From Candidatus Peribacteria bacterium (GTDB lineage: Bacteria; Patescibacteriota; Gracilibacteria; UBA1369; 2-02-FULL-48-14), in assembly GCA_943357175.1 (NCBI GenBank), contig CALRGE010000001.1, positions 129,232 to 171,104 on the forward strand: DNA of 41,873 nucleotides, written 5' to 3'. Of this stretch, positions 1,210 to 30,826 are shown piece by piece. Position 1 is the stretch's first letter. Each line of letters begins with the position of its first letter. A program made the translations under genes and the position numbers. A model generated the notes under the pieces. It searched no databases, had not been told where the DNA came from, and saw only the letters and a list, made by a program, of their open reading frames with translations.

Positions 1210-3284
1210 GCTGGCTTTTAAGTCTACCTTTTTCGCTCAATTCAGATCACTTTGCTAATTTTTTTGCGAAGTTTTGGAATTTTGAACTTTGGGCAACTTT
1301 GATTTTGGCAAATCTAGGATTTTTCTTGCTGATTTTGATTCCTGGAATTGGATTGAGTTATTTCTTGCGTCCAAAGTTGTCGGCTTCGCTACGAGTGTCA
1401 TTTGGACTTTCAATTGGCTTTATTTTCCCGGTTTTTCTGTTTTATGTTTTGGGATTTTCACATTTATATTACAAGATGGCCTGGGCGATTTGTGGAATTT
1501 TACTTAGCGGATTTTCTATTTGGCGATTCGGTGCTGATTTTTTGCGTGAATGGAAATCTTCAGAAATTAGAAAAAGCGCTGTGATCTTTTATGGCATTTT
1601 GACTGCGTTTTTTCTTGCTATGTATCTGGCTTTTTTCAATGAAGGCATAATGGATTATGACATTTTATTTGGCCAAGTTGCTCCTGCTGTACATCTTTTT
1701 TTTGAGCATGTTTATAATCCTTTTGATATGGGCGCAATTCCAATTGTGCGGCATGAGCTTTTTCCTGGACCAATTTCTTTCCATTCGGTTTTCATGAGCT
1801 TTGGTTCAAGCCCTTGGGTTGCCGCGACGGCAGTCATGGTTATTTTGGCGCCATTGATGCTTAGGATGTTTGGTCAATTTTCTGAATTTTTAATTCCAAG
1901 GAGTGAATTTTTTACTGTGTTTATGATGCTGAATACTTTTTTGGGATTCAGAATAAAAAATGCTCGTGGAACAGTGCTTGCACTGGTTTTCTTATTTGGA
2001 TTTTTGCTTCTGCCACGAATTTTTGAGGAGCTGAATGATAGGCGAGATGCGCACTTTCGTGATCTTCTGAAGCCGATTATTTCCACAAGTATTTTGGTGG
2101 CGCTTTCGCTCTATACAAACATTGAAATCGGCGCGATTTTGCTTGGAATATTGGCGATTGCAGTTATTGGATCTTGGCTTACGGGAAGGCGCGCGATGAT
2201 GAAAACTCTGCTTTTTGGAGTGGCTGGAGGCTTCGCGCTCTATGCACCTTGGTTTTTGACTGTTGCTCTTTTGGCGTTCGGAGATAGTTTAGTTTCAATA
2301 CTTATTTTGTATCTCTCTCTCGCTCTGCTCGCGCTTGCTTTAACTTTCTTGCCGAAGCTGAAAGTAGATTCTAATTTTCTTGAGAAAATTATGCTGCTAC
2401 TTTTGATGATTGGCACAGCGATTGCAGTTTATATTGGTTCAGGATCAAGTTTATTTAGACTACCTGACTCATTGCGATATCTTGCTATTTTTTCTGTATT
2501 TCCAATTATATTTTTTGCATGGAAAAAACCTGATTTTGATCGACACTCATTCTTTATTTACTCATGGTTTTTTGCAATTCTATTCATAGATATTTTTCCA
2601 CTACTTAAGCCTGCTGCTTTGGCTATTGGACTTCCGGAAAGATTGCAATTTTTCCTTTTTGATAAGCCTCTTGGCTCTGTTTTTCCAGAGTTGGCAACAA
2701 AGGTTCAGGAATATTTCTTGCCTTCGTTCGCGCTTATTTTTTTGAGCGGATTAATTGTTTGGATTGTTAAAAATTGGCTGTGGCAAAAGTGGACACTTGT
2801 TGTTTCAATGATAATTTTTTTCTTTTTTGTATCTGTTAGATTTCAGCCTTCCGATTATGAAGAATATCCGCGTGGTCAAACAATTTCTGCAATAACTTAC
2901 TTTATTTTAAGTTCAGAAATTGCTTTTCATGAGCAGCCGGTTTGGCTCAGTCCACAGGCGCTGGATATTATGAATGTGCTTGATGATGTGAAAAAACCTG
3001 GTGATAAAATCTTTAATTTTTATGCGGTTTACAACCCTTATTTTCCTGAATATATTTACTCTTATTTGATGACTGGTGTTGGTGGAGTCGGGCTTGATAA
3101 AGATGATTTGAAGTCTGATCAATATGATTTGCCACTTCTTGAACAGGTGATTTCTGCAGGTGCAAATTATGCGATTTTTATGCCTGGACCGGTTTCTCCT
3201 GAGATTTGGTTAAATGACCCGCGAATGGAGCTTGTTGCTTCAAGTGAGGATGGAACTTATATTTTGGCGAGTATTAAGCGTTAA
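1206..3284 (+). CDS. Large polytopic membrane protein, possible GT-C-type glycosyltransferase
   Basis: A 692-residue protein with about 13 or more hydrophobic segments spread over residues 30-560, followed by a soluble C-terminal domain of about 110 residues (from about 580). This layout, many helices plus a C-terminal globular tail, resembles GT-C lipid-linked glycosyltransferases and related membrane proteins. The acidic first large loop (NEGIMDYDILFGQ, about residues 145-157) is compatible with such an active site, but I see no diagnostic motif. The gene overlaps ftsK by ATGA. Its tail overlaps the convergent secA gene by 11 bases. GT-C is an inference; a flippase- or polymerase-like envelope protein is an alternative. 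Confidence 0.6.
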   Translation: MSWLLSLPFSLNSDHFANFFAKFWNFELWATLILANLGFFLLILIPGIGLSYFLRPKLSASLRVSFGLSIGFIFPVFLFYVLGFSHLYYKMAWAICGILLSGFSIWRFGADFLREWKSSEIRKSAVIFYGILTAFFLAMYLAFFNEGIMDYDILFGQVAPAVHLFFEHVYNPFDMGAIPIVRHELFPGPISFHSVFMSFGSSPWVAATAVMVILAPLMLRMFGQFSEFLIPRSEFFTVFMMLNTFLGFRIKNARGTVLALVFLFGFLLLPRIFEELNDRRDAHFRDLLKPIISTSILVALSLYTNIEIGAILLGILAIAVIGSWLTGRRAMMKTLLFGVAGGFALYAPWFLTVALLAFGDSLVSILILYLSLALLALALTFLPKLKVDSNFLEKIMLLLLMIGTAIAVYIGSGSSLFRLPDSLRYLAIFSVFPIIFFAWKKPDFDRHSFFIYSWFFAILFIDIFPLLKPAALAIGLPERLQFFLFDKPLGSVFPELATKVQEYFLPSFALIFLSGLIVWIVKNWLWQKWTLVVSMIIFFFFVSVRFQPSDYEEYPRGQTISAITYFILSSEIAFHEQPVWLSPQALDIMNVLDDVKKPGDKIFNFYAVYNPYFPEYIYSYLMTGVGGVGLDKDDLKSDQYDLPLLEQVISAGANYAIFMPGPVSPEIWLNDPRMELVASSEDGTYILASIKR

Positions 3285-5799
3285 TACCGTGGCATTTTTT
3301 ATATTTTTTACCGCTCTTACAAGGACATTGATCATTCGGCCCCATCTTTTCAGGAGCTAAATTTTCTTCAACTTTATCCTCATTTGTTCGCATAAGCGGC
3401 ATTGGAGCAGGTTTAACAATTTGAACATTTATTTTAACTCTCATTAAAGTCGCCAAAGTTTCATAGTCAATTTTTGCAACCATTTCTTCGAAGATTTGGA
3501 ATGCTTGATTCTTATATTCGATTAATGGATCACGCTGACCGTATCCGCTCAATGCAACAGCTTCACGGAGGTATCTAAGTTCGTCGATATGCTCCATCCA
3601 AATTCTGTCGATTACTCGAAGCATTATGCTTCTTTCTGCACCACGCATTAGTTTTGGATCAGGTAGATTTTTTTCTTTCTCTGAATACTCGGCTTCAAGA
3701 TATTTCTTTAAAATATCCATAAGTTCTTCTTGAGATTTTCCTTCTAAAGTCTCGTATGCGATTGGGTTAACAGGATCGCGATGAAGTGCCATCACGTTTT
3801 CCCAAGTTTCTTTTTGGTTTCCTGCATTTCGAAGTACCATTTCTTCAATTTGATTTTCAATAAGCAAAATTACATCATTTTTCAGATTTTCGTTGTCGAT
3901 AATTTTTCTGCGCTGTCTGTAAATAATTTCTCTGTGTTTGTTCATGACATCATCATATTCCACGAGGTGTTTACGAATATCAAAGTTATGACCTTCAACT
4001 TTTCTTTGCGCGCCTTCAATCGAATTGCTAATAAGCCGGTTTTCGATTGGCATATCTTCCGGAAGTCCGAGTCTATCCATCAGTGATTTCATTTGTGAAC
4101 CTCCGAAAATTCGCATCAAATCGTCGTCCATTGAAACGTAGAACTGAGTTGTTCCTGGATCACCCTGACGACCAGAACGCCCTCGAAGCTGGTTGTCGAT
4201 ACGTCGCGCCTCGTGCCTTTCACTACCGATAACGCAAAGTCCTCCGAGTTCGGTAACACCTTCACCGAGTTTAATATCTGTTCCACGACCGGCCATGTTT
4301 GTTGCAATTGTAACGGCGTTTTTTTGGCCTGCACCTGCCACAATTTCCGCTTCTTTCTCATGAAATTTTGCATTCAAAACTGTGTGTTGAATTCCTTTTG
4401 CTGTTAGCAATTTTGAAAGTGCCTCAGATTTTTCAACGGAAATTGTACCAATCAAAACCGGTTGACCATTTGCATGTAATTCTTTTGTTCTATCTGCGAT
4501 TGCAATAAATTTCCCCTGAATATTTTTGTAAATTGCATCTGGTTTATCAGCACGAGAAATGTTTTTGTTGGTCGGAATTTCGAGTACGCTAAGCCCGTAA
4601 ATGCTGATAAATTCTTCTTCTTCTGTCACAGCTGTACCTGTCATTCCACCTAGTTTTTTGAAAAGTCGGAAGTAGTTTTGCAGAGTAATTGTCGCAAGTG
4701 TTTTACTTTCACGTTTGATTTCCACACCTTCTTTAGCCTCGATTGCCTGGTGAAGACCTTGGCCATAGCGGCGGCCAGGCATTAAACGGCCTGTAAATTC
4801 ATCCACAATCAGGATTTCACCGTCTTTAATTACGTAATCCACGTCGTTTTTGTAAACGGCCTGAGCGCGCAATGCTTGCTCAATATGATGAACTTCATCG
4901 AAACCTTTTTCAGTGTAAATATTATCTACGCCGAGTAGTTCCTCCATTTTTTTAATTCCAACTTCATTTAATGTTGCGACTTTCTGTTTTTCGTCGATGT
5001 CGTAATGAGTGTTTTCTTCGAGAGATTTCACCAATCGAGAATAGATCATGTATTTCTCTGTTGATTCTTCAGCCGGTGCAGAAATAATCAACGGAGTTCT
5101 TGCTTCATCAACCAAAATTGAATCCACTTCATCAATGATTGCGTAGTGCAAATCGCGTTGAGTGAGATCTTCTTTGCGTTGAGCCATGTTGTCTCGCAAG
5201 TAATCAAAACCGAATTCGTTGTTTGTTCCATAAGTTATATCTGAGTTGTAAGCTGCACGTTTTTCTTCAGGATTCTGGCCGTGCAAGCTGATGCCTACCG
5301 TGAGTCCTAGAAATCTGAAAAGTCCCCCGTTCCATTCCGCATCACGTTGAGCGAGATAGTCATTAACAGTTACAACGTGCACTCCCTTTCCTTCGAGTGC
5401 GTTTAGGTAAATAGGGAAGGTTGAAACTAGAGTTTTACCTTCACCAGTTTTCATTTCGGCGATACGGCCTTCGTGCAACACGATTCCACCAATCATTTGA
5501 ACGTCGTATGGAACCATGTCCCAGGTGTACTGATGTCCACGTACATCCCAACTTTTTCCAACTAAGCGGCGTGCGGCATTTTTCACAAGTGCAAAAGCTT
5601 CAGGTAAAATCGCATCGAGTTTTTCTCCATTCGCGATTCGTTCTTTAAATTCGGCAGTTTTTTTCGCTACATCTTCATCTGTTAATTCGGTCTGGTAAGT
5701 CGTTTCGATTTCGTTGATTTTTGTGACTAAAAGCGCGAGGCGTTTCAGATCTTTCTTCTTCGGATCACCGACAATTTTCTCAAGGAGTTTTAAAAGCAT
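3274..5799 (-). CDS. secA: Protein translocase subunit SecA
   Basis: SecA is the ATPase motor that pushes unfolded preproteins through SecYEG. The 841-residue protein is close to the usual family length. It has Walker A MKTGEGKT (residues 116-123), the DEVDS DEAD-type motif (223-227), the helicase-2 stretch TNMAGRGTDIKLG, and a C-terminal zinc site CPCKSGKKYKKCH that normally binds SecB or the ribosome. The zinc tail is intact, which many reduced genomes lose. The ATG is preceded by A-rich sequence without a Shine-Dalgarno motif. The last codons overlap the convergent upstream gene by 11 bases, leaving no room for a separate terminator. Confidence 0.98.
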   Translation of the reverse strand: MLLKLLEKIVGDPKKKDLKRLALLVTKINEIETTYQTELTDEDVAKKTAEFKERIANGEKLDAILPEAFALVKNAARRLVGKSWDVRGHQYTWDMVPYDVQMIGGIVLHEGRIAEMKTGEGKTLVSTFPIYLNALEGKGVHVVTVNDYLAQRDAEWNGGLFRFLGLTVGISLHGQNPEEKRAAYNSDITYGTNNEFGFDYLRDNMAQRKEDLTQRDLHYAIIDEVDSILVDEARTPLIISAPAEESTEKYMIYSRLVKSLEENTHYDIDEKQKVATLNEVGIKKMEELLGVDNIYTEKGFDEVHHIEQALRAQAVYKNDVDYVIKDGEILIVDEFTGRLMPGRRYGQGLHQAIEAKEGVEIKRESKTLATITLQNYFRLFKKLGGMTGTAVTEEEEFISIYGLSVLEIPTNKNISRADKPDAIYKNIQGKFIAIADRTKELHANGQPVLIGTISVEKSEALSKLLTAKGIQHTVLNAKFHEKEAEIVAGAGQKNAVTIATNMAGRGTDIKLGEGVTELGGLCVIGSERHEARRIDNQLRGRSGRQGDPGTTQFYVSMDDDLMRIFGGSQMKSLMDRLGLPEDMPIENRLISNSIEGAQRKVEGHNFDIRKHLVEYDDVMNKHREIIYRQRRKIIDNENLKNDVILLIENQIEEMVLRNAGNQKETWENVMALHRDPVNPIAYETLEGKSQEELMDILKKYLEAEYSEKEKNLPDPKLMRGAERSIMLRVIDRIWMEHIDELRYLREAVALSGYGQRDPLIEYKNQAFQIFEEMVAKIDYETLATLMRVKINVQIVKPAPMPLMRTNEDKVEENLAPEKMGPNDQCPCKSGKKYKKCHGINA

Positions 5800-5853
5800 T
5801 TTGTTTAAATAGGTAGCTGAGGTATTTAAGCATACAGTGGGGGGATTTGCTAT

Positions 5854-6858
5854 TTATTTATGGTTTTTCTTTCCAAGATTAATAGCATGTAAGGCCGCTT
5901 CATCGAAATCGTTATCTACGTTTTTTGCCTCGATTTTCTTATATTCGGTAAAGTTCCTTTCGGCTATTTCTACTGCTAGTTCGTGAGATATTTTGCCTGC
6001 ATCTTCCAGAATGTTTTTATTATTAATCTCTAAAAAACTGTGGAGTTTGACTATCCAATCTTTCATGTACATTGGGACTCTTTGCAGGGCTTGTCCTTCT
6101 GCAAATATGAGATATTGTTCAACGATATTATTTAAAACGAGAAGTTCCTGCTCGGTTAAATAATTTTTGGCGATTGTTATTTCTTCCTTTGTGGGTTTGC
6201 TACCTCTAAAGTTCGTAAGGCCAACATTCGGTTTTTTGCTATCTACTCTATTTGCAATAATTTCCGCGGCGGTGTTCCCGGTAATTGCATGATGAACTTT
6301 GTTTTGTACTGTTTTGAAAAAAAGAATGCTCTCCTTGGTCATAGGGTCATAATCGATACTGGTGCTAAAGATCTCGGTGATTTTTCGGTAGAATCTTTTT
6401 TCAGAAGTTCTAATATCTGAAATTCTGCGAGATAATTCTTCAAAATAATCAAATGGTAGATCTGGGTTTTTCAGTCGTTCATCATTCATCACAAAACCCT
6501 TAACAATGTATTCGCGTAGTCTTTGTGTAGCCCAAATACGGAATGATGTAGCTATAGAACTTTTTACACGGTATCCGACAGAAATAATCATGTCGAGATT
6601 GTAGTACTCTAATTCCCTTTTTACTTCACGCACACCCTCTTTTTGAACTGTAAAGAATTTCTTTACAGTTGAATTTTCTGATAGTTCAACTTCTTCTATG
6701 ATATTTTTAATATGTTGACCAATATTTTGCTTTGTTGTTTGGAATAGTTCTGCCAAGGCATTTTGTGTCAACCATACCGTCTCGCCATCAAAACGCACGT
6801 CGATTTTTGTCTCGCCGGTTTCTGACTTATAGATTATGAATTGTGATTTATTTTCCAT
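5854..6858 (-). CDS. RhuM family protein
   Basis: A 334-residue protein matching the RhuM (virulence RhuM) family along its full length. Conserved stretches are IDVRFDGETVWLTQNALAELF and the repeated-helix region around YYNLDMIISVGYRVKS. The central segment also matches: RIWATQRLREYIVKGFVMND. The family was named from a Salmonella pathogenicity island gene, but its biochemical function is not known. Members are scattered and often sit in accessory or defence-type neighbourhoods. Here it is a single gene between secA and an envelope gene, with no mobile genes beside it. The upstream region has an AT-rich run (TATATA about 20 bases before the ATG) that could serve as a promoter. Family assignment is solid; role is unknown. 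Confidence 0.88.
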   Translation of the reverse strand: MENKSQFIIYKSETGETKIDVRFDGETVWLTQNALAELFQTTKQNIGQHIKNIIEEVELSENSTVKKFFTVQKEGVREVKRELEYYNLDMIISVGYRVKSSIATSFRIWATQRLREYIVKGFVMNDERLKNPDLPFDYFEELSRRISDIRTSEKRFYRKITEIFSTSIDYDPMTKESILFFKTVQNKVHHAITGNTAAEIIANRVDSKKPNVGLTNFRGSKPTKEEITIAKNYLTEQELLVLNNIVEQYLIFAEGQALQRVPMYMKDWIVKLHSFLEINNKNILEDAGKISHELAVEIAERNFTEYKKIEAKNVDNDFDEAALHAINLGKKNHK

Positions 6859-6920
6859 CGTTTGATTGTAGTTTATATATTACTATCACCAATTCTAAAT
6901 GGAAGACCTGAAAAAGTCCT

Positions 6921-6941
6921 GAATTATTCCTGTAATAATTC
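6921..6941 (-). terminator. Perfect 8-bp hairpin downstream of the 104-aa gene
   Basis: GAATTATT / AATAATTC with a 5-base loop. On the minus strand it follows the 104-residue gene and is followed within a few bases by CTTTTT. It could end that transcript or act as an operator for the RhuM gene. The stem is all A/T except one G-C pair, so termination strength is doubtful. Confidence 0.4.
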
Positions 6942-6964
6942 GCTCAGCTTATAACGAATCATAA

Positions 6965-7279
6965 CTAATTCACAAAGCCTAGATCTTCAGGTGGTAAGTG
7001 ATGATCAAGTATTTGGCTTGGGTCGAATTTGTAAAGTGAGCCGCTTTCAGTCGTGATTAAATAAATTTCATTTTCCTGAGAAATTGTTTCCACGATTGTT
7101 GTGTTTCCTCTGCTAAGTTTTATGGCTTTTCCAACTTCAATTGGTGGATTTTCAAGTACTCCACAAATTTCTAAATTACGCCCGTTATCTTCAGTTTTTT
7201 TCATAAAAATTACTTTCCCGGATGTTATTTCCAGTGGAATTTCTTGAATTTCAGATTGATTGTCTGGTGAGCTATGCAT
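6965..7279 (-). CDS. Hypothetical protein, 104 aa
   Basis: Not recognised. The protein has no membrane segment or signal peptide. Its alternating hydrophobic pattern (GKVIFMKK, AIKLSRGNTTIVET, EIYLITTESGSLYKF) suggests a small all-beta fold. It begins 15 bases after the stop of the sugar transferase gene and may be co-transcribed with it. A candidate -10 element (TATATT, 7286-7291) lies 6 bases before the ATG, which would give a leaderless transcript of its own. The best -35 candidate (TGGAAA, 7308-7313, 16-base spacing) is only moderate. Confidence 0.65.
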   Translation of the reverse strand: MHSSPDNQSEIQEIPLEITSGKVIFMKKTEDNGRNLEICGVLENPPIEVGKAIKLSRGNTTIVETISQENEIYLITTESGSLYKFDPSQILDHHLPPEDLGFVN

Positions 7280-7294
7280 GCTTAAAATATACTA

Positions 7295-8737
7295 TTAATC
7301 TGCGGCTTTTCCACCCCAAACAACAAAAAAAGTTCTGATTATTATTTTGAGGTCGCGGAAGATTGTCCAGTGTTTTATGTAGAAAGTATCGAGGCGAACT
7401 TCTTCTTCAAAATCGAGATCACTGCGGCCGGAAATTTGTGAAAGCCCGGTGATTCCGGGTTTGATTGTGAGCAGGAATTTATGATGTTTTTCGTAGTCTG
7501 CCACTTCTTCAGGAATGTGTGGGCGAGGGCCAACCATGCTCATGTCACCTTTGAGGACGTTCCAAAGTTGAGGAAGCTCGTCGATTGAAGTTCTGCGGAG
7601 CAGACGACCGAAGGGAGTCACACGCGGATCATCCTTGATTTTCAGTACCGGTCCTTTGCGATTGTTTCGTTCTGCTAGTTCAGTGAAGCGTAAGTTGTGT
7701 GTGCCGGGGCGCATTGTTCTGAACTTGTAGAATTTGAAGAGTTTACCATTTTGGCCTACTCGGCAGGCAGGGGAGCCATCGTCGAGTTTTGTGAAAAGAA
7801 CAGGTCCGGTAGAATCGAGTTTAATTAAAATTGCTACTAACGCGAAAAGAGGAGAAAGAAGAATTAGTCCGAAAAAACTTGCTAGAGTATCGAAGACGCG
7901 TTTTACAATTTTCCCCCAACCTTCAAGTGGAGTAGGTTTAAGGTGAATTAGCGGGAGCCCGGCGACTGTAACAATTTCAACATTGCTTCTTTCCATTTCG
8001 AGAATGTCTGGAACAAAAGAATATTCAACGTGGTTCTCTTTGCAGAAATCCAAAACGTCGCGCTCTTGATCTTTGTCGAGATCATGGCCGGTTTGAATAA
8101 TTCGATCGACAGAAAATTTCCGAACCATGCGAGCGAGTTCATTTAGTGAGCCTAAGCGGCGAAGTCCGCTGATCTCCGTATTTTTCACAGAAATATATCC
8201 AACAATTCTGTAATGTGGATCAGCTTTTAAATTCTTAACAATTTTTTCAGTTATTTTATTAGAGCCAATTACTAAAAGTTTAATTGTACCGATGTCTGAC
8301 CGCAAAAGTTGACGTTCTATAAGATGTAAAATCAAACGTGCAGTAATCAGAAGTGCCAGAGTAATAATGAAACTCATTCCCAACACGAGTCGAGAGAAGA
8401 AAACTTGTCTGACTGCAAAAAAGTATGCGGTTACAAGTAAAATCCAGACTATTGAAAAAGTTATAACTTTTCTCTGTTCTTGAAGTGGGCCATCAGTATT
8501 TTTCATACTGTAAAGACCGAAAAAGAAAAAGACCGCGATTAGAAGTGCAGCGAAGTATAAAACCAGTTGGAAGTAGTCGTTAACAGGTGGAAAAGTCGAA
8601 GCATCGAGCGGAAACTGCATTCCCGGAATGAAATCTCCGTTAAGGCGAATCTTGTATCCGAGCATAAAGCCGAGCACAACCATGGTGAAGTCTGTTGGAA
8701 TTCTGAGGACGCCGAATGCTATTTCTGATTTTTTCAT
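7295..8737 (-). CDS. Undecaprenyl-phosphate sugar phosphotransferase (WbaP/WcaJ-type, polyprenyl glycosylphosphotransferase)
   Basis: This enzyme starts surface polysaccharide synthesis by moving a sugar-1-phosphate onto undecaprenyl phosphate at the membrane. The 480 residues follow the standard layout. There are four N-terminal membrane segments (about residues 10-135) and a Rossmann-like CoA_binding_3 domain (about 150-265). A fifth hydrophobic helix (SFFGLILLSPLFALVAILIK) precedes the catalytic bacterial sugar transferase domain, which contains KFYKFRTM and DELPQLWNVLKGDMSMVGPRP. A TATAAT at 8746-8751 ends 8 bases before the ATG, implying a nearly leaderless mRNA. The sugar specificity (glucose, galactose or other) cannot be read from the sequence. 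GalU in this window could supply UDP-glucose to this pathway. Confidence 0.93.
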   Translation of the reverse strand: MKKSEIAFGVLRIPTDFTMVVLGFMLGYKIRLNGDFIPGMQFPLDASTFPPVNDYFQLVLYFAALLIAVFFFFGLYSMKNTDGPLQEQRKVITFSIVWILLVTAYFFAVRQVFFSRLVLGMSFIITLALLITARLILHLIERQLLRSDIGTIKLLVIGSNKITEKIVKNLKADPHYRIVGYISVKNTEISGLRRLGSLNELARMVRKFSVDRIIQTGHDLDKDQERDVLDFCKENHVEYSFVPDILEMERSNVEIVTVAGLPLIHLKPTPLEGWGKIVKRVFDTLASFFGLILLSPLFALVAILIKLDSTGPVLFTKLDDGSPACRVGQNGKLFKFYKFRTMRPGTHNLRFTELAERNNRKGPVLKIKDDPRVTPFGRLLRRTSIDELPQLWNVLKGDMSMVGPRPHIPEEVADYEKHHKFLLTIKPGITGLSQISGRSDLDFEEEVRLDTFYIKHWTIFRDLKIIIRTFFVVWGGKAAD

Positions 8738-8779
8738 CGAGGTGGATTATAGCTCAAAGACTTCAAAAAGGCAGGTGTT

Positions 8780-9181
8780 TTACTCCTCTTTGCTTAATGA
8801 CCATGATTTGAATTCAGGGTGTGCCCGAGTAGTAAAACATGTAATTTCTTCACCCACATCTTCTGGTGATTCAGGGTAAAATGGAGTAATTACCTCTAGT
8901 ATTTTCAATCTGTAAGATTCTTTTACCAAGTCACATTCACTTTTTATAACTTCAACTTTAAATTCCGCTTCCGCTTCTTTGTAATTAGCGATCTCGCCTA
9001 CAAGAAATGTTTGTCTGCATAAATCTCTTAGTTTTTGAAATTGAGCCAAATCCACCTTACTTGTCTGTGCGAGTTGTTCCAGATGTTCGTTTGTTAATCT
9101 TCTCAAAAAATCAATCTGAACCGGAGTAAAATCACTAAATCGTTCTGGAGTGTAAGCATCAATATCTGTAATTTCTGCCAT
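8780..9181 (-). CDS. Hypothetical protein, 133 aa
   Basis: Not recognised. It is a soluble protein that looks mostly helical in the first 75 residues (SDFTPVQIDFLRRLTNEHLEQL). A more mixed C-terminal part follows, with one cysteine in ITCFTTRAHPEF. No signal peptide or membrane segment is visible. It lies between the rnpB 3' end and the sugar transferase gene on the same strand. The leader is A/T rich with no Shine-Dalgarno motif. Coding status is supported by length, codon use like the neighbours, and tight spacing. Confidence 0.6.
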   Translation of the reverse strand: MAEITDIDAYTPERFSDFTPVQIDFLRRLTNEHLEQLAQTSKVDLAQFQKLRDLCRQTFLVGEIANYKEAEAEFKVEVIKSECDLVKESYRLKILEVITPFYPESPEDVGEEITCFTTRAHPEFKSWSLSKEE

Positions 9182-9249
9182 AATGTTAAATTTAATTAGT
9201 CGCTAATATGCATTGCTGTAAGCCACAAGTCAATTAAGCAGAGCAAAAA

Positions 9250-9587
9250 AGCCCCTTTGATAAGCCGAGTTCTGTCAGCCGAAGCTGTGATGATCATCTA
9301 TCTGGGCGTCGCATCACTGCGCCGCTCGAGCGTCGGGCTATTTGGGGTGTAAGGCCACCTGATCCAAATATCCATTCCCGACTTGCAACAGAAAGGGTTT
9401 ACCAACCCGCTTTCGCGAGTCCCCGTGCCTTGCGGTATAGGGGGCGTTTCACACTGGTCGTCTCTGTGGCACTTTCCCTAAAGCGGTTTTATTAGACTCC
9501 GCTCCGGCAGCCGTTAGCTGCTTTCATGCCTTATGTTGCTCGGACTTTCCTCCCCGAAGGGCGATCACCTAAAGGAGCTATTTTTAC
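9250..9587 (-). ncRNA. rnpB: RNase P RNA, bacterial type A
   Basis: The catalytic RNA that trims 5' leaders from pre-tRNAs. The minus strand has the universal 5' core GAGGAAAGTCCGAGC (9538-9552) and the 3' core ACAGAACTCGGCTTAT (9260-9275), about 290 bases apart as expected. The ends close into the P1 stem: AGCTCCTTT (9571-9579) pairs with AAAGGGGCT (9250-9258) with one G-U. A run of six T residues (minus strand, 9245-9250) follows P1 and probably ends transcription. The start is placed from the promoter at 9594-9622. No RNase P protein gene (rnpA) is seen here. Confidence 0.96.
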
Positions 9588-9593
9588 GAACCG

Positions 9594-9622
9594 ATTATTC
9601 GCTATTCTCTGCGGATTGTCAA
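9594..9622 (-). promoter_or_regulatory. Strong sigma-70-type promoter for rnpB
   Basis: TTGACA (9617-9622, perfect -35), a 17-base spacer, then AATAAT (9594-9599, 5/6 match to -10). The predicted start is about 9587, just upstream of the P1 stem. It is the best promoter in the window, which fits an abundant stable RNA. Confidence 0.85.
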
Positions 9623-9696
9623 TTAATTTGACTATCACGAAAAAGATGTTGAAATAACACCCACCGGCGGTGAATTAGAAAATGAATTTACTTACG

Positions 9697-9966
9697 TCAA
9701 TTTAACTCATTTTTATCTACGTCACCGGACAACACTTCTGCGATTCTATGTAGTTCACCACTAATAATCAGATTTACAATCCATTGGTCAGGGTCGATTT
9801 TTGCAGAAATTGCTGCGATTTGTGCGCCTAAAATTTTAATTACTTGAGGATCTTTAGTCTCATTCATGGCAATCATCAAAGCAGCGTAGTTTTGAGCCTC
9901 ATCTTTTGTATATACTCCTGAAAACTCCATTTCTCTAGCCATTTCTTCGATCCTATCTTTCATCAT
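9697..9966 (-). CDS. Hypothetical protein, 89 aa
   Basis: Not recognised. A small acidic protein, mostly helical by its residue pattern (RIEEMAREMEF, AQNYAALMIAMNE), with no membrane segment or cysteine pair. It starts with two methionine codons (ATGATG) behind an A/T-rich leader without a Shine-Dalgarno motif. It is on the same strand as the TPR gene upstream, with about 46 bases between them, and ends about 75 bases before the rnpB promoter. A short palindrome (CACCGGCGGTG, about 9662-9672) lies between its stop and that promoter. Confidence 0.55.
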   Translation of the reverse strand: MMKDRIEEMAREMEFSGVYTKDEAQNYAALMIAMNETKDPQVIKILGAQIAAISAKIDPDQWIVNLIISGELHRIAEVLSGDVDKNELN

Positions 9967-10012
9967 AAATAAAAAATAACAGATGTGAGACTAACACACT
10001 CTATCTATTGGG

Positions 10013-10603
10013 TCAATTGCTTTCCTCCAACTTCATGAACTCTCTTTTGAAAAATTTCGCCGTTTCTAGGCAGTCTTTTGCTTTTTCATTATCAGGTTCA
10101 AGTTTCAAAGCGTACTCGAGTAGTTCGATTGTTCGGTTGAATTCTCGGTCGTTTAAGTAGCAAACTGCAAGATCACAGATCACTAATGTATCTGTTGGAG
10201 CAATTGCGCGCGCTCTTTCAAGCATAATTAGACCTCGTTTTCTATCTCCACCGTGGAAAATTGACCAACCTAAACATCTTAAAATTTCAGGGTGATGCGG
10301 TTGAACTTTGTTAGCAGTTTCAAGAGTTTGTACAGATTTCTCGAAATCACCGATAGATGAATACAAAAAGCCCAATAAATATAGCGCGTTTGCGCTTGTT
10401 GGCTTCAATTTTAGCGCGTAGTTAAGCGCTTTCATTGATTTCTCGTATTCGCGAAGGCTCAAATAGTTGTCGCCGAGTTCCTCGTAAGCTTCCACGTAGT
10501 CTAAGTCGCTGATCAGCATTTTGTTTGCTAAGGCGATAGCTTCCTCATGGTTTCCGGCTAGTTTCAGCGCGTCGGCTTTTTTAAGCAATTCGTCGAGTGA
10601 CAT
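10013..10603 (-). CDS. Tetratricopeptide repeat protein
   Basis: A 196-residue protein made almost entirely of about five 34-residue TPR units. Examples are YVEAYEELGDNYLSLREYEK, SANALYLLGFLYSSIGDFEK and HPEILRCLGWSIFHGGDRKR. Each has the small residues and the aromatic/Gly pattern of TPR helices A and B. TPR proteins are scaffolds that bind partner proteins, so the partner here is unknown. There is no signal peptide, so a cytoplasmic role is expected. The leader reads AAACAAAAACAAAAATG with no ribosome-binding site, a purine-rich style seen at other starts in this window. Confidence 0.85.
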   Translation of the reverse strand: MSLDELLKKADALKLAGNHEEAIALANKMLISDLDYVEAYEELGDNYLSLREYEKSMKALNYALKLKPTSANALYLLGFLYSSIGDFEKSVQTLETANKVQPHHPEILRCLGWSIFHGGDRKRGLIMLERARAIAPTDTLVICDLAVCYLNDREFNRTIELLEYALKLEPDNEKAKDCLETAKFFKREFMKLEESN

Positions 10604-23077: not shown

Positions 23078-24511
23078 ATGGAAAAATTCTACATAACAAC
23101 TGCGATTGCGTACGTTAATGCAGCGCCACATATTGGTTTTGCTTTGGAGCTTTGTCAGGCTGATGCACTTGCGAGGTATCATAAAATTCACGGTAAAGAG
23201 GTTTATTTTCTGACCGGGACAGATGAGCACGGTACGAAAATTCAGCAAACTGCTAAGTTGCAAGGAATTGAGCCGCAAGAGTTAGCAGATAAAAATAGTC
23301 AGCTTTTTAGAGATATTGGCGCAAAATTAAATATTTCGAATGATGATTTTATTCGTACCTCTTCAGAACGGCATAAAGAAGGTGCTGTGAAAATTTGGAA
23401 TAAATTGGTGGAGGCCGGCGATCTTTATGAGAAAGAATATGAAGGGCTTTATTGCGTTGGTTGCGAGGCTTTTGTGCTGGAGAAAGATTTGGTGAATGGC
23501 GAGTGTTCGATCCACAAAAAGGCGCCGGAAAGATTGAAAGAAAAAAACTGGTTTTTTAAGCTTTCAAAATATTCAGAAAAAATTAAGGAATTAATTTTGA
23601 AAGATGAATTGTTGATTCGACCGGCATCTCGTCGGAATGAATTCTTGTCTTTGTTGGATGAAGGTCTACAGGATGTGAGTTTTTCACGACCGAAAAAAAC
23701 ATTGCAGTGGGGAATTGATGTGCCCGGTGATGATTCTCAAGTTATGTATGTATGGTGCGATGCGCTCACGAATTATATTAGCGCGCTTGGTGATAAAGTG
23801 GATAAATTTTGGCCTGCTGATGTCCACTTGATTGGTAAGGATATCTTGCGATTTCATGCGGGAATATGGATTGGTATGTTACTTTCTGCGAAGATTGAAA
23901 TACCTAAATCAATTTTTGTGCATGGTTTTGTTACGAGTGAAGGACAAAAAATGAGCAAATCTTTGGGGAATGTGGTTGATCCTTTTGGATTAGTTGATGA
24001 GTGGGGTGTTGAGCCGGTCCGATATTATTTGTTACGTGAAATTCCAACTGCTGATGATGGTGATTTTTCTCAAGAAAGATTCAAAGTTATTTATGAAGAT
24101 GAACTTGCAAATACAATTGGGAATTTGCTTCGACGAACGGTTGCGATGTGTATTAAATACTTCGATGGAAAGGTTCCTGAATCTGATTTTGCTGAGATTT
24201 CAGAATTTTGTGAGCAGGCTTGGGCGGAATATCATAATAATTTTGCCGACTTTAATATCAAGATGGCTATAGAGTCTATTTTGGTAGTAGCGCGGCATGC
24301 GAACGCTTATGTTGAGCAAAATAAACCTTGGGAATTGGCGAAAACTGATGAGGCTCGACTTCGAATTGTGATAGCGAATTTACTGAAAATGTGCAGGCAA
24401 ATTGGGCACATGCTCGAGCCGATTATTCCAACAATTGCAGATAGTATTTTAAAACAGGCGGGCAAAGAAAAAGTTGAACTTTTAGAGCCACTTTTCCCGA
24501 TGCGAACTTAA
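23078..24511 (+). CDS. metG: Methionyl-tRNA synthetase
   Basis: Charges tRNA-Met. The 477-residue protein has the class I HIGH-type motif PHIG (17-20) and KMSKS (291-295). A zinc knuckle half-site has C126/C129 and C143/H146. The anticodon-binding helical domain includes YVEQNKPWELAK. It lacks the C-terminal tRNA-binding extension of longer MetRS, like many CPR forms. The TAA stop overlaps the stop of the convergent pilin-like gene by four bases (TTAA). Confidence 0.97.
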   Translation: MEKFYITTAIAYVNAAPHIGFALELCQADALARYHKIHGKEVYFLTGTDEHGTKIQQTAKLQGIEPQELADKNSQLFRDIGAKLNISNDDFIRTSSERHKEGAVKIWNKLVEAGDLYEKEYEGLYCVGCEAFVLEKDLVNGECSIHKKAPERLKEKNWFFKLSKYSEKIKELILKDELLIRPASRRNEFLSLLDEGLQDVSFSRPKKTLQWGIDVPGDDSQVMYVWCDALTNYISALGDKVDKFWPADVHLIGKDILRFHAGIWIGMLLSAKIEIPKSIFVHGFVTSEGQKMSKSLGNVVDPFGLVDEWGVEPVRYYLLREIPTADDGDFSQERFKVIYEDELANTIGNLLRRTVAMCIKYFDGKVPESDFAEISEFCEQAWAEYHNNFADFNIKMAIESILVVARHANAYVEQNKPWELAKTDEARLRIVIANLLKMCRQIGHMLEPIIPTIADSILKQAGKEKVELLEPLFPMRT

Positions 24512-24927
24512 GTTGCGTTAACATCTGTGGAGACAAGTATTTTGATTACTCCTCGAACAATTGAGTAGGAAAGAATGATTATAATCAGCCCGAATATAGA
24601 CCAAGTTATTCCTCTTTTTGCTTGCTCAATTCTATCATCTACACCATAAGCAAAGGCATATTTTGCACCTGCAATTATTAGGAAAATCACAGTAAGTGCT
24701 CCACAAAAAACTAAAACTTGTCCAACAAGTTTACCAACGTATAAGATTAAAGTTTGGGTTGCAGCTGCTTCTGGGTGTCCTTCAACTGTAGCGATTTCTG
24801 TTTCTGGCCCTAGTGTTGGCAAATTGCTAGGTCTGAAGTCATCTTCCAATTGAATTGATGCAAAAGCTGTTAGAGTTATGCTCCAGAAAATAATGGCGGC
24901 TAGAAATGTGACGTAGATTTTTTTCAT
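24508..24927 (-). CDS. VirB2/TrbC-like small membrane protein, single module
   Basis: 139 residues: a cleavable-looking signal peptide (KIYVTFLAAIIFWSITLTAF), an acidic linker and a pair of membrane helices (about 66-88 and 103-125). A charged loop with DRIEQAKRG separates the helices. This two-helix layout is that of VirB2/TrbC pilins from type IV secretion systems. The module recurs four more times in the operon. It is the last gene, coupled by ATGA to the two-module protein, and converges on metG. Function as a pilin is an inference from topology; a membrane channel component is also possible. Confidence 0.72.
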   Translation of the reverse strand: MKKIYVTFLAAIIFWSITLTAFASIQLEDDFRPSNLPTLGPETEIATVEGHPEAAATQTLILYVGKLVGQVLVFCGALTVIFLIIAGAKYAFAYGVDDRIEQAKRGITWSIFGLIIIILSYSIVRGVIKILVSTDVNAT

Positions 24928-25790
24928 TCGCTTTCTGTGTTTGAGAATACGTTATCGGTGCTGGAATTTTCATCGTTTCCAAGCGTGAGAGTTGAGATAC
25001 CATAAATAATTGCATAACCCATTGATAAGACCACCATCGCCACTAGGCTGTAAATCAGAATATTTTTTGCTTTAGTATTTGCTTCTTCATTACCTCGTCC
25101 AATAACCATGTAAATTCCACCCACTGTTAGTGAAATGAAAATTAGAAGGCCGGTGAGATAGAAAATATTTGTGATAATGCCAGGCACAACTTCTGTTATT
25201 AGATCACCTCCTGCTAAGGAAACATTGTCTGTTTGATCTTCAATCAGTGCTTTTTCAGTTGGGAAAAGTGTATCAACATCTATTGGCTTGTTAGCCGTGG
25301 TTTCAGCGGCGTATGATCTTGGAATCCATGTAGTTTCTGTGCTTTCACTTGGCAGAGAAATTGAACTGATAATTTGAACAATTGCATAAGAAAGCATAAC
25401 AATCACCATACCCAACAGAGAATATTGAATGATGTCTTTTCCTTTTTTATATTTATCTTCAACTCCGTATGCAGTGAGCATGTGATATGCGCCAATAACA
25501 AGACCGATGAATGCTCCAATTCCAACAAGTCCTATTCCTGTATTTATAATTTTTGGGATGCTAACATTCAGAAAATATTCTTGAGCATCTGCACCTTGTG
25601 TAGTTTCCTTTGGACCCGGTAAATACGATGGTTTAGGAATGGTCGGAGTTGTGACTGTTGGAGGAGCGGCTTCAGTAGCTAATTCCACGTCCTCTTCCGC
25701 AAAAATTACCGGTTCTCCGGCAAATGCTATGTTTGTGAATAGTCCAAGACTTACAATCGCGAATAGAATGGATGAAAATATTTTTTTCAT
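24924..25790 (-). CDS. VirB2/TrbC-like membrane protein with two modules
   Basis: 288 residues with a signal peptide (KKIFSSILFAIVSLGLFTNIAFA), a Pro/Thr-rich linker, and two VirB2-like helix pairs. Module 1 (about 80-144) has YGVEDKYKKGKDIIQYSLLG; module 2 (about 205-270) has GRGNEEANTKAKNILIYSLV. Both end in SYAI/GYAI-type helices. A polar spacer of about 55 residues separates them. Tandem fusion of the module in one chain is uncommon. It is coupled to its neighbours by TAATG and ATGA. Confidence 0.75.
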   Translation of the reverse strand: MKKIFSSILFAIVSLGLFTNIAFAGEPVIFAEEDVELATEAAPPTVTTPTIPKPSYLPGPKETTQGADAQEYFLNVSIPKIINTGIGLVGIGAFIGLVIGAYHMLTAYGVEDKYKKGKDIIQYSLLGMVIVMLSYAIVQIISSISLPSESTETTWIPRSYAAETTANKPIDVDTLFPTEKALIEDQTDNVSLAGGDLITEVVPGIITNIFYLTGLLIFISLTVGGIYMVIGRGNEEANTKAKNILIYSLVAMVVLSMGYAIIYGISTLTLGNDENSSTDNVFSNTESE

Positions 25791-26632
25791 TAGAAGAAGA
25801 AGGTTGGATTTATTGTGTATAAAATAAGTGCCGAAAGGAAAAGTAGCGCAATACCCATTATTGATTGAGTGATTCTATCTTTTGCTTCTGTGATATCTCC
25901 TGTTGCACCTGAAACCGAGATTTGAATTCCGCTCCCTACGATTGTTGCAACCGCAATGAAACCCACAATCCCCGCCCCAAAAACGTATATTTGTTTTACA
26001 TATGTTTTTAGGATTCCTGCTCCTGTTGAGGAGATTAACCATTGGACTTTTTGGCAGGATTGGGCACCGGTTGTACACTCTGTATATGTCTCATAATATA
26101 CATTTCTGGTTGAGTCACAGTAATATGCTTCTGGAATTGCATCTCTTGCTTCGGTAATAACCTTCCCATTCTCGTCTATTTCTTCTTCAACTTCTGCTTG
26201 TTCTGGAATCGTAGCGCCGGCTAAGCAACATATTCCTTTGTATAATTCAATAATTTTATCATCACCTAATTCTATTTCGCCACCTATCGCTTCAGTAATC
26301 TCAGTGACAATTTTCGGATCTTTATTAGTAGTATCATCTTTTGCCGAACAATCACCCATTTCAAACATTCCAGTAGAGTCATGTTTAGTACCACAAGTAC
26401 TATTCAGATATTTAATAGATTTTGCGTAAGTAGAGTATGTTTCTGTCACTGTTGCTAAAACTGCTGTTTCTTCTTCACCACCGTTATATCTTGCTGTTAG
26501 CTCAGGCACACCCAATAAACCAGTACCGCTACTGCATATTTTTTTGATTGGCACTGAACTCGCACCTAAAGCAACAGCACTCAACATTACAGAGAGATAC
26601 ATTCCAAGTGTTAAGAAGGCGAGTTTGCGCAT
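25790..26632 (-). CDS. Cysteine-containing surface domain fused to a VirB2-like module
   Basis: 280 residues: signal peptide (RKLAFLTLGMYLSVMLSAVALG), an extracytoplasmic domain of about 175 residues with about nine cysteines (including a CC pair in KGICCLAG), then a C-terminal VirB2-like helix pair (from about 213). The helices are joined by a polar loop with DITEAKDRITQS. The even spread of cysteines suggests disulfides outside the membrane. The ectodomain is not recognised. It sits 7 bases after the ATPase-pilin fusion gene and overlaps the next gene by TAATG, so it is in the same operon. Confidence 0.7.
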   Translation of the reverse strand: MRKLAFLTLGMYLSVMLSAVALGASSVPIKKICSSGTGLLGVPELTARYNGGEEETAVLATVTETYSTYAKSIKYLNSTCGTKHDSTGMFEMGDCSAKDDTTNKDPKIVTEITEAIGGEIELGDDKIIELYKGICCLAGATIPEQAEVEEEIDENGKVITEARDAIPEAYYCDSTRNVYYETYTECTTGAQSCQKVQWLISSTGAGILKTYVKQIYVFGAGIVGFIAVATIVGSGIQISVSGATGDITEAKDRITQSIMGIALLFLSALILYTINPTFFF

Positions 26633-26639
26633 GGAGGAT

Positions 26640-29120
26640 TTAGTAGAAGAAGGATTGGACGAAGGTTACGATGGTGTACGAGGCGAAACCGAAAATGAGA
26701 CCGATTATTGCTTGGGAAATCATGTTTTTGTAACGGTCGATTTTGGTTTGATCTCCTTGAGAAGTTATCATTAAAATTCCTGCGGCGACAAGTACAACAA
26801 AGGCAAATGTTCCGATTAGTAGAGTCAAAATGTTGATTACTCGAAGGAGAACCTCAGCGACGGTGGAGCGTTCATTATTACCAGCAAGTTCTTTTATATC
26901 TTGCGAAGTTGATTCGCCTGTTTCTTTACCTGTTGTTTGATCTGTTGATTTACTTGAAAGAATTTCGAATACATCGAAATTGGAAGTTGTTGAATTTGCA
27001 GCCGATGCTATTTGTGAAGTAGCTGGTAAAATTAAGACAATGCTGAGGAAGATTGTGGCGAGGAATTTCTTCATGCTTTTACTATAGCGCTCTTCGAGTT
27101 TTTGTTCAACAAAGCTTCTGCGACGGCCGAATCTTTCAGCACAGATTTTAATTGTTTCGTGGAGATTTGTGTTGTGAGGCGGATCGATTTTTTGTGTTTC
27201 GAACCTGAAAGTTGGAAGGCATTCGGAGTTTTTGAGGAGTTTTGCGTATGCTTGAAATGGTGGAAGTTGGCAGAGATCTTCTTCAACAAGTGATAGCTGC
27301 GGCGCGAGTTTTTCTGCGTCAGCAAAATTTGTTCGGAATGCAATTAGAGAGCCGACGTTTCCAAGAACTGCATCTTGATATTCGGGTGGAATTTGGTTTA
27401 TAAATTGGTTCGCCACCGTGAGTGAGAGGCCGTATTTTCTCGATTCAGAAAGCATTGTTAGGAGAGTCGGGCTGCAGAAATTTTGAAATTCATCAATGAA
27501 CATTGCGACGGTTTTTCTTTCGGTTGCAGGAATATTTGCGCGTTTTAGCAGGCAAGTTTGAATCATTGAAATAAAAATCATGCCCAGCATTTTTGAAGCG
27601 TCTTCTCCGAGTTTTCCTTTTGAAAGCGCGATTATTACAATTTTATTTTGATCGAAGAGACTGTCGAAATTGAGTTTGCCGCGAGGTTGTCCAAAGATAT
27701 TTCTGAGAGTTGGGGAGGTGAGGAGTGGCCCAACCTTGTTTAAGATTGGGGCGATGTGCTCTTGGCGAGTTTTTGGATCGAGATTTAGAAATTCGCTTTG
27801 CCAAAAACGTGTAAGCTCGATGTCTTTTATGTCGCTGATTTTTTTAAGACAGAAATCTTTTTCTGTTAGTAGGCGAGGTAAATCTAGCAAACTCGTATTT
27901 TTGTTGAGGAGAAGTGTGAGAATTGCATTCCTCAAAATATACTCAAGGCGTGGGCCCCAACTTCCTTTTGCCAGCATCTGAAAAATTTCAGTTGTAGCAG
28001 ATGCTTTCAGGCTTGGGTTTTCATCCGGCAAAAGTTCTAGCGGATTTACGGCAAGTGGATATTCAAGATTTGAAGGATCGAGAATTACTAGATCTTTAAG
28101 GCGATTCTGCTGGATTGTTTTTATTGCATCTTCAGCGAGATCGCCGTGAGGATCTAAAATTATGACGGCATGATTTTTTTGAAGGTCACGTTTAAGAATC
28201 GCCAAAATTGTGCTCGACTTTCCCATTCCGGTTTTGCCCAAAATGTATAGATGTCGCTTGCGGTCTTCTTCATTCATTTCGAGTGGATCTCCGGGTGGAG
28301 CTCGCAGATAAGCAGTACTTTCGGACTGTAAAATCGCGGCGCAGTTTTTTGTGTCAGGCATTGTTAATAGGCTTGCGAGTTCTTCAGCGCTTAGAATTAT
28401 TTTCGACGGTTTTTTTGTTATTTTTAGACCGTTCAAATATGGAAGTGTGAAGCCGTTTAGAAATTCGGAAAAATTGTGAGTCATTTCAATTTGAACCTCA
28501 AAAAGTGGGCGAGAAAGCTTATCAAGAATTGCAGAAAGTGGATCTTCACGTTCATGAATGCTTTCGGTTTTTTCTTCAGGCCCGTGTTTTTCAGCGGAGA
28601 TTTTTGTGAGAAAAAGTCGCAGTAGAGGGCTGAAAATTTTTCGAAATTTGAAGTGAAACCAGCCACGTGATTCCCATTGATCGAGGTGTCTTTCAGCTTT
28701 GAAGTGAGCTTTTTTGCATTTTTTCAGCGCACGTTCGCGCTTTTTATCTTTTATTGCTTTGAAGGTGATTTTAAAGTGCGAATTTTCTGTGGCGGCAATT
28801 TTTGAAATTAGTGAATCAGCCGGGAAAATTCTTTCTTTATTAATTCTATCTTCAAATTGACTGTAGCGTTTTATGGGAAGTAGAGTGCCTTTGAGTTGGC
28901 GGGCGAAGTAAGTTGGGCTTAGAAGTGAGATGTGGTTTTTTATTGAACGCGATCCGGCAAAAGTTTCTTCTAAATTTTCGCTGCTTGAAATTTGGGTTTT
29001 TTGAGATTCATTTTTGAATGCAATCCACATCTCTCTTTTCGATTTCTGGGCTGTGTGAAGCCAGTGCTCAAAATCACGTGGGTGATATTCTCTGGTTTGT
29101 GCGAGGCGTATTTGGAACAT
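26640..29120 (-). CDS. VirD4/TraG-like ATPase fused in frame to a C-terminal signal peptide and VirB2-like module
   Basis: 826 residues. The motor domain has Walker A GKTGMGKS (295-302), the strand IILDPHGDLAEDAI and Walker B FIDEFQNF (541-548). The NQFINQIPP loop is also typical of type IV coupling proteins and HerA/TraG helicases. The N-terminal 290 residues are basic and not recognised. From Met683 a new signal peptide begins (MKKFLATIFLSIVLILPATS) and leads to a VirB2-like helix pair ending the protein. There is no stop between the two parts. A good promoter lies exactly upstream of Met683, so the second part may also be made as a separate pilin (26640-27074). It heads the pilin-like operon. 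Confidence 0.85.
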   Translation of the reverse strand: MFQIRLAQTREYHPRDFEHWLHTAQKSKREMWIAFKNESQKTQISSSENLEETFAGSRSIKNHISLLSPTYFARQLKGTLLPIKRYSQFEDRINKERIFPADSLISKIAATENSHFKITFKAIKDKKRERALKKCKKAHFKAERHLDQWESRGWFHFKFRKIFSPLLRLFLTKISAEKHGPEEKTESIHEREDPLSAILDKLSRPLFEVQIEMTHNFSEFLNGFTLPYLNGLKITKKPSKIILSAEELASLLTMPDTKNCAAILQSESTAYLRAPPGDPLEMNEEDRKRHLYILGKTGMGKSSTILAILKRDLQKNHAVIILDPHGDLAEDAIKTIQQNRLKDLVILDPSNLEYPLAVNPLELLPDENPSLKASATTEIFQMLAKGSWGPRLEYILRNAILTLLLNKNTSLLDLPRLLTEKDFCLKKISDIKDIELTRFWQSEFLNLDPKTRQEHIAPILNKVGPLLTSPTLRNIFGQPRGKLNFDSLFDQNKIVIIALSKGKLGEDASKMLGMIFISMIQTCLLKRANIPATERKTVAMFIDEFQNFCSPTLLTMLSESRKYGLSLTVANQFINQIPPEYQDAVLGNVGSLIAFRTNFADAEKLAPQLSLVEEDLCQLPPFQAYAKLLKNSECLPTFRFETQKIDPPHNTNLHETIKICAERFGRRRSFVEQKLEERYSKSMKKFLATIFLSIVLILPATSQIASAANSTTSNFDVFEILSSKSTDQTTGKETGESTSQDIKELAGNNERSTVAEVLLRVINILTLLIGTFAFVVLVAAGILMITSQGDQTKIDRYKNMISQAIIGLIFGFASYTIVTFVQSFFY
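27081..27109 (-). promoter_or_regulatory. Candidate internal promoter for the pilin part of the fusion
   Basis: TTGAAC (27104-27109), a 17-base spacer and TATAGT (27081-27086) on the minus strand, inside the ATPase reading frame. The predicted start falls on the ATG at 27074 (Met683), giving a leaderless message for the signal-peptide/VirB2 part. Confidence 0.55.
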
Positions 29121-29207: not shown

Positions 29208-29880
29208 GCTCGTCTGGTAATAGCAAAATTAACTTCTCTGTGGCGATTTTTTGTATAATTTCCGGTCGGCTGATTTTGATTTCGTTAATTGCAATTAGGC
29301 TGGCTTTGATTTTTAGAGCTTCACGTAGACCATCTTCAAGTGTTGTAAAATGTTCGCCAAGTTCTTTTTGTTCTATCAAACCCATGAAAGATTTTGCAGG
29401 ATATTTAATGCTACGTTCGAGAGAAACTGCGCTTTCGCTTCGATTTTGGCTGAAGTATTTCAAAATTGAGGCGTAGAGTGCTTGGTCATGAATTGTGAGA
29501 ATTCCATGATTTGTCTTGAGCCATTTTTCGATAGAAGCAAAGGCTTTGTGACCTGATAAATCGTTCCAAAGTGGCTTTAATCTTTGAACAAGTAATACTT
29601 TACCCACCTGATTTTCTTGCATGCTGAAAATAAAACGCTCCGCATTATATTCATGAGAAATTTCTAGACCGTTTTCTAGATCTTCAAGAGTTTTTTCGCC
29701 TAATAGTTCTTTGATAGCTCCGGTGATGTCGCTACTTTCGCCGTCTTCAATTATTTTCCACTGATTCTTCACTAAAATTCGCGGAAAATTTCCGCTAGGT
29801 AAAATCAATAAATCGGCTTCGTATTGGCCGAGAGTTCTAAGTAATTTAGGCAGATTGGCCGACATGTTCAAGTATTTCAT
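29197..29880 (-). CDS. Degenerate PilT/GspE-like protein lacking ATP-binding motifs
   Basis: About 227 residues from the ATG at 29880 (29865 is an alternative). The N-terminal part follows the PilT N-domain: LLRTLGQYEADLLILPSGNF, then RILVKNQWKII, then the helix and RFIFSMQENQVGKVLLVQRL. Next comes the motor fold: GILTIHDQALYASIL where PilT has the Walker A strand. SIKYPAKSFMGLIEQKELG follows where PilT has IEDPIE...QREVG, and DGLREALKIKASLIAINEI where PilT has ALRAALREDPDVILVGEMRD. The GKS/T lysine, acidic Asp box and Walker B Glu are absent, and the C-terminal domain is missing. It probably cannot hydrolyse ATP. It overlaps dus by 35 bases. Homology is my reading by eye and needs a profile test. 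Confidence 0.6.
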   Translation of the reverse strand: MKYLNMSANLPKLLRTLGQYEADLLILPSGNFPRILVKNQWKIIEDGESSDITGAIKELLGEKTLEDLENGLEISHEYNAERFIFSMQENQVGKVLLVQRLKPLWNDLSGHKAFASIEKWLKTNHGILTIHDQALYASILKYFSQNRSESAVSLERSIKYPAKSFMGLIEQKELGEHFTTLEDGLREALKIKASLIAINEIKISRPEIIQKIATEKLILLLPDELLS

Positions 29881-30826
29881 TAAGTATTCTTTTTGCCTCT
29901 TCCAAGGTTGAAATGTGCACGACGCGAGCTCTATATTCGCTGGCTCCGTCGAAGCCACGAATTGCCTGCACGAAGTTTTTTCGCATCTCCACAATTCCAC
30001 GATTTTCGCCTTTTGTTTGCACTGAAAGTTCGCAGTGTTTCAGTAGATACGGAAGTTTTTCAGCGAAAGTTTTTGGAGCTGTGTATTCACCGCCGTAAAA
30101 AGCTGCCGCGATTTCAGCCATAACCCAAGGGTTGCTCATTGTCGCTCGGCCAACCATTACACCGTCGAGATTCTTTAATTTGCCGACTGCATCTGCTGCG
30201 CTGAGAACATCGCCGTTTCCGATAACCGGTATTTTTAGATTTCTTTTTACTTCATAAATCGGTTCCCAATCAGATTTTCCGAGATACATTTGTTTCGCTG
30301 TTCTGCCGTGAATTGTGATTAATTCTGCGCCAGCCTCCTCAAGTTTTTTGCAAAATGCGATGAACCATTCTATATCTACTTTGTTGATTCCCAGTCGTGT
30401 TTTTACTGATACAGGAAGGGAAGTACCTCTAACTGTTGCGGCCACAATGTCTGCGGCATGACATGGGTTTTTTAGAAGGGAAGAGCCGTGATCACTTGAA
30501 ACAACTTTTTTGGCCGGGCAACCCATGTTTAAATCAATCGCATCTGCTCCCATTTCTTCTATTTTTTTTGCGGCTTCGGTGAAGTGATCAAGTTTTTTTC
30601 CGAAAATCTGAGCGACAATCGGGCGCTCTTCATCAGGATTAAAATCTAGTTGTTTTAGAGTTTTTTTGCTTGAGTAAACAATTCCGTCGACGCTGGTGAA
30701 TTCTGTAAAACAAATCGCGCGAGGTTCTATACTTTTAATTAACTGACGATAAGCGGAGTCGGTATAGCCGGCCATTGGTGCCAATGCAAGAATCGGCTTT
30801 GTGCAATTTTTCCAGGAGAATTTCAT
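29846..30826 (-). CDS. dus: tRNA-dihydrouridine synthase
   Basis: A flavoenzyme that reduces uridines in the tRNA D-loop. The TIM-barrel start reads LALAPMAGYTDSAYRQLI (about 13-30). The active-site Cys lies in NMGCPAKKV (C103). Substrate/FMN motifs are SVKTRLGI, LITIHGRTAKQMYLG and IPVIGNGDVLS, and the phosphate-binding loop is GVMVGRATMSNPW. At 326 residues it is full length, of the DusB-like type. It overlaps the upstream TPR/pseudopilin gene by ATGA and the downstream PilT-like gene by about 35 bases. Confidence 0.96.
   Translation of the reverse strand: MKFSWKNCTKPILALAPMAGYTDSAYRQLIKSIEPRAICFTEFTSVDGIVYSSKKTLKQLDFNPDEERPIVAQIFGKKLDHFTEAAKKIEEMGADAIDLNMGCPAKKVVSSDHGSSLLKNPCHAADIVAATVRGTSLPVSVKTRLGINKVDIEWFIAFCKKLEEAGAELITIHGRTAKQMYLGKSDWEPIYEVKRNLKIPVIGNGDVLSAADAVGKLKNLDGVMVGRATMSNPWVMAEIAAAFYGGEYTAPKTFAEKLPYLLKHCELSVQTKGENRGIVEMRKNFVQAIRGFDGASEYRARVVHISTLEEAKRILNEILEHVGQSA

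Follow-up and report, generated by a model that had tools for sequence, protein, structure and literature searches.

A type IV secretion-type ATPase and the first pilin of its array occupy one reading frame in a single Peribacteria genome

T4SS ATPases and arrays of VirB2-like pilins were described across the Patescibacteria in a 2025 study, which counted 441 arrays with 2–11 pilin genes each and 5,713 VirD4-type homologues, mostly distant from virB4 (PMC12102498). The window analyzed here, 41,873 nt of a contig from a Candidatus Peribacteria bacterium with a genome of 1.23 Mb, holds a locus of the kind already described, the first two genes of an operon that in Patescibacteria encodes a T4SS ATPase and a pilin array, and like the published arrays it combines a VirD4/VirB4-type ATPase with tandem, low-identity PF18895 pilins in a small genome. 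Every component of the published arrays is described as a gene of its own, whereas at this locus, in one genome, the first pilin lies within the frame of the ATPase. We found no mention of an ATPase–pilin fusion in the main text of that study, and the fusion is at most a private variant.

The frame itself (26640–29120, minus strand) was confirmed as an uninterrupted ORF of 826 codons, in which a VirD4/VirB4/HerA-superfamily ATPase (residues ~1–682) is followed by a T4SS_pilin (PF18895) prepilin from Met683. Its parts and neighbors are as follows.

29846..30826, minus strand: dus (tRNA dihydrouridine synthase), the upstream neighbor and synteny marker (PF01207, E 9e-77)
27075..29120, minus strand: motor part, residues 1–682 (Pfam, 45–57% identity to the genes of five relatives, fold matches, hydropathy)
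27069..27095, minus strand: junction, where the pilin ATG comes after the conserved motor end ERYSK with no in-frame stop between them (DNA and alignment)
26643..27074, minus strand: prepilin part, residues 683–826, its ATG overlapping an out-of-frame TGA (PF18895, 39–43% identity to the downstream genes of five relatives, start context, modelled helix pair)
25790..26632, minus strand: second pilin-like gene, 280 aa, with a C-terminal helix pair and a start that adjoins the end of the fused frame (PF18895, E 1.6e-5, 25.3 bits against a cut-off of 26.6)
24924..25790, minus strand: third pilin-like gene, 288 aa, with two T4SS_pilin domains (PF18895, two stretches, 36.8 bits)
24508..24927, minus strand: fourth pilin-like gene, 139 aa (PF18895, 28.1 bits)

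Four pilin-like units at 24508–27074, the second just below the cut-off, lie beside a T4SS gene, as in a Patescibacteria pilin array. The second pilin-like gene also comes next in relatives, whose motors have dus upstream and pilin genes downstream wherever the compared DNA extends far enough. The known T4SS inventory of Patescibacteria thereby gains a conserved operon of dus, motor and pilin array. The source genome (G000) has further DUF87-type motors and PF18895 pilins; a paralogous DUF87-type motor that is intact there carries a disrupting frame shift in the relative G004 (C1:216739–218993).

The motor core is like T4CPs, VirB4 and HerA in both sequence and fold. DUF87 (288–501), T4SS-DNA_transf, TrwB_AAD_bind and TraG-D_C all exceed their Pfam gathering scores in the fused frame, as does T4SS_pilin (753–821), with the ATPase families confined to residues 288–600. 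Walker A (GKTGMGKS, 295–302) and Walker B (FIDEFQNF, 541–548) stand where the original prediction placed them, within a RecA-like core of the DUF87/TraG-D type that assigns the protein to the T4CP/VirB4/HerA ATPase superfamily, and all invariant motor residues are intact. Fold matches across residues 276–663 reach Z scores of up to 14.9 with T4CP/VirB4/HerA structures, including 6sz9, 4ag5 and 1gki. Residues 1–654 align to TrwK/VirB4, but with an rmsd of 13–14, and for the N-terminal region 1–270 the VIA-align rows are too loose for naming the fold. The motor had been proposed to be cytoplasmic, which the analysis supports, and VirD4/TraG-like, which holds at the level of the superfamily but not for a T4CP proper: the motor reaches the general Pfam T4SS-DNA_transf score, but its matches to the NCBIfam TraD/VirD4 models are far under the cut-off, and hydropathy finds no transmembrane segment in residues 1–660 and hence no N-terminal membrane anchor. 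The VirB4 Pfam family gave no match in the fused frame. Because the motor misses both the NCBIfam VirD4/TraD cut-offs and an N-terminal anchor, we call it a VirD4/VirB4/HerA-superfamily ATPase and not a proven coupling protein.

The C-terminal part scores as a VirB2-like T4SS_pilin, with 33.3 bits against a gathering score of 26.6 for PF18895 at 753–821. Only three strongly hydrophobic segments are found in the whole frame, at 686–704, 767–785 and 803–821. The first belongs to a signal-peptide-like segment that begins at Met683, MKKFLATIFLSIVLILPATSQIASA↓AN, and closes with an AxA-type cleavage motif (QIASA↓AN), which bears out the internal signal peptide proposed at this position. The other two are the hydrophobic helices of the VirB2-like pair that had been predicted to follow, and AlphaFold2 models them with good local confidence as a helical hairpin of residues ~753–786 and ~791–825 (block pLDDT mostly 82–90); in a model of the whole fusion, confidence is low at 687–763, between the signal peptide and the hairpin. 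In the PDB, neither a Foldseek search with the hairpin nor a sequence search with the pilin profile was informative. In the fused pilin and the five separate ones alike, the signal peptide closes with an AxA-type motif; the conserved pilin positions are intact, and neither half of the frame contains stops or frameshifts.

All five same-family genomes (G001–G005; loci L006–L010) have the same operon order, with motors 45–57% identical to ours over the whole length and pilins 39–43% identical, but each of them encodes motor and pilin in two neighboring genes of one operon, with a stop between them and the pilin in a frame other than the motor's. Each half of the fused frame has a full-length homologue among the relatives' separate genes, which means that neither is an ORF by chance, and what is exceptional about the frame is the absent stop and nothing else. 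The relatives' motor frames are 674–707 codons long, each with its own stop, and the pilin ORF begins at or just past that stop, in the same relative frame to the motor in 5/5. The stop shares an ATGA with the pilin start in L006, L007 and L010; L008 and L009 have a TAA and then a spacer of 11 and 17 bases before the pilin start. In the alignment, conservation of the motor stops at Arg678-Tyr679; beyond this the relatives have a variable tail, and the fused frame has Ser-Lys-Ser and then directly the pilin ATG. Met683 is still written ATGA, now in the motor's frame, and this retained overlap, combined with the relative frame shared by the relatives, points to a net frame-changing length difference in the non-conserved motor tail as what removed the stop. 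The original prediction had named a stop codon between the two parts in close relatives as the observation that would count against it, and its presence in every same-family genome speaks against a designed or recurring motor–pilin arrangement.

Searches for the same fusion in related genomes, which the original prediction had proposed, did not recover it in any of the five same-family genomes, nor in 89 genomes of the order or 353 of the class (best two candidates each, among the matches listed). Specifically, when the whole fusion was searched against the 353 class genomes, with the best two motor candidates scored per genome, only the source genome's match reached the pilin part among the matches listed, and the others were motor-only. 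In a pilin-profile search of the 89 order genomes, no further frame of motor size proved to be a motor, and the long pilin-bearing frames inspected are PKD-repeat proteins. Scanning the compared loci with motor and pilin HMMs together, under tables 11 and 25, returned the source locus alone, and no recurrent fusion was found among 80 contig loci. The fusion is a singleton among the genomes examined and not a stable recurring architecture. Since in-frame TGA is seen in several related members of the class, we also considered an alternative genetic code, but reading through TGA in L006, L007 and L010 misses the pilin frame, L008 and L009 end in TAA, and the table 25 scan gave no further fusion. 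A 774-codon pilin-domain frame in G050, which resembled a second case, is a PKD-repeat protein cut by a contig end.

We consider it fairly likely that a T4SS ATPase and the first pilin of its array have been joined into one frame in the source genome only, and that the cell probably still produces two proteins. In this lineage the ORFs would have been fused by a net frame-changing deletion or insertion in the dispensable motor tail, and the cell would continue to make both proteins by either of two routes. In the first, ribosomes would additionally initiate at Met683. In the second, the internal signal peptide would target the full-length chain from behind a predicted 78-kDa cytoplasmic domain, and signal peptidase I would cut behind Ala707; this would release a mature pilin of 13 kDa, while the motor would retain the old signal peptide as a membrane segment at its C terminus. 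Signal peptidase processes the conjugative pilins both of bacteria (VirB2) and of archaea (TedC) (PMC9905601), and the source genome contains one recognisable signal peptidase I gene (PF10502, E 4.7e-33). The A-rich, G-poor start context of Met683 scores 1.26, where true starts have a median of 2.15 and internal ATGs one of −2.69. By this purely statistical score, 91% of internal ATGs and 40% of the true starts rank below it; the start of the motor itself has a score of 0.0. The kept AxA site, the signal peptidase I and the start-like Met683 together mean that internal initiation, cleavage or both would give a normal pilin. Shine-Dalgarno motifs are nearly absent from the source genome (2–5 of 230 starts, fewer than in shuffles) and from G004, the 16S 3′ end (L233) retains CCTCC despite this near absence, and G is strongly depleted at −13 to −7 before genes genome-wide in both the source genome and G004. 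If real, the fusion is a small natural experiment in which the loss of one stop codon links an ATPase with a secreted pilin, the cell must depend on internal initiation or signal-peptidase cleavage, and the ease with which overlapping T4SS genes could fuse becomes apparent.

If the fusion is not real, the locus is just a usual operon whose stop has been lost. Under a sequencing or assembly artefact, the true genome would have two separate genes with the ancestral stop/start overlap, and a small indel in the assembled sequence would have removed the stop. We give such an artefact a lesser but appreciable chance, given that the fusion is a singleton set against five of five relatives, that the ancestral ATGA is still visible at Met683, and that the genus and species are represented by one genome. 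We measured frame errors by comparing ~0.67 Mb of the source genome with all available contigs of G004 through reciprocal best genes, which covered 374 pairs, 129,308 aa and 180 conserved same-strand neighbors. The motor–pilin frame was the only fusion in the source genome in this comparison, and none of the 374 pairs contained a split protein gene there, the single reported ‘split’ being a 23S-like rRNA sequence as judged by eye. With ~388 kb of alignable coding sequence showing no other frame disruption, we estimate fewer than ~8e-6 events per base, at which an error-made fusion would be expected ~0.02–0.04 times among 180 conserved junctions, and the only homopolymer at the junction is a run of four A. 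As no other disruption appears across the 374 pairs, this assembly seems to contain few frame errors, and a true lineage-specific event is favoured over a one-off sequence error, as judged from one genome of the species.

The internal signal peptide had originally been taken to tether motor and pilin one to one. As a functional tether, a single polypeptide would anchor the ATPase at the membrane beside the pilin and couple its energy to pilin extraction one to one, which we consider improbable even though the frame is uninterrupted, the conserved residues are all kept in both parts and the motor itself lacks a membrane anchor. The fusion is found in no other genome of the order set or, among the matches listed, of the class set, and for an ATPase of a hexamer-forming family and a filament subunit a 1:1 ratio is not expected. 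A lasting one-to-one tether would moreover need the cleavage site to go unused, which is unlikely. Because that site is kept, signal peptidase I is present and Met683 still has a start-like context, a permanent tether is unlikely and the pilin is likely released or made separately. Slightly less probable again is a natural one-polypeptide T4SS motor–pilin whose internal signal peptide is an uncleaved anchor, leaving the ATPase membrane-tethered by a pilin subunit; a literature search on internal signal peptides in fusion proteins gave nothing useful. Least credible is a decaying locus, with the fusion as an early step of degeneration and a motor or pilin that no longer functions, for although the fusion is unique and recent and the genome's other motors and pilins could support such a reading, the invariant motor residues and conserved pilin positions are intact and free of stops and frameshifts.

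A T4SS_pilin domain is covalently joined to another large protein elsewhere in the order as well, at the N terminus of PKD-repeat proteins (G000 C9, G002 C2 and others), which resemble the fused frame in this respect but differ in that the partner is a set of PKD repeats and not a motor, and in that they recur across several families of the order. Proteins of ~1,650 aa with a near-N-terminal T4SS_pilin domain and many PKD repeats are encoded in L230 (G000 C9:20001–40000) at 752–5695 on the minus strand, in L227 at 5118–10097 on the plus strand and in L249 at 2319–4628 on the plus strand, and pilin-domain frames of ~1,520–1,790 aa recur in many genomes of the order, making this a real, recurring pilin fusion. 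These pilin–PKD giants may be pilus-borne adhesins or tips. In L250 (G006 C43) the giant at 2291–6001 is in two frames, of 416 and then at least 813 codons, and the frame of the same-genus G050 runs into the PKD part where that of G006 splits, which points to either a broken frame or an error in the sequence of G006. We also observed two adjacent ORFs with several T4SS_pilin-like helix pairs each (G000 C9:25728–27464, in L230; L249 172–2260; L250 144–2232), with three pairs per protein in G000, and this multi-pilin ORF pair directly precedes the PKD giant both in G000 and in the genomes of another family.
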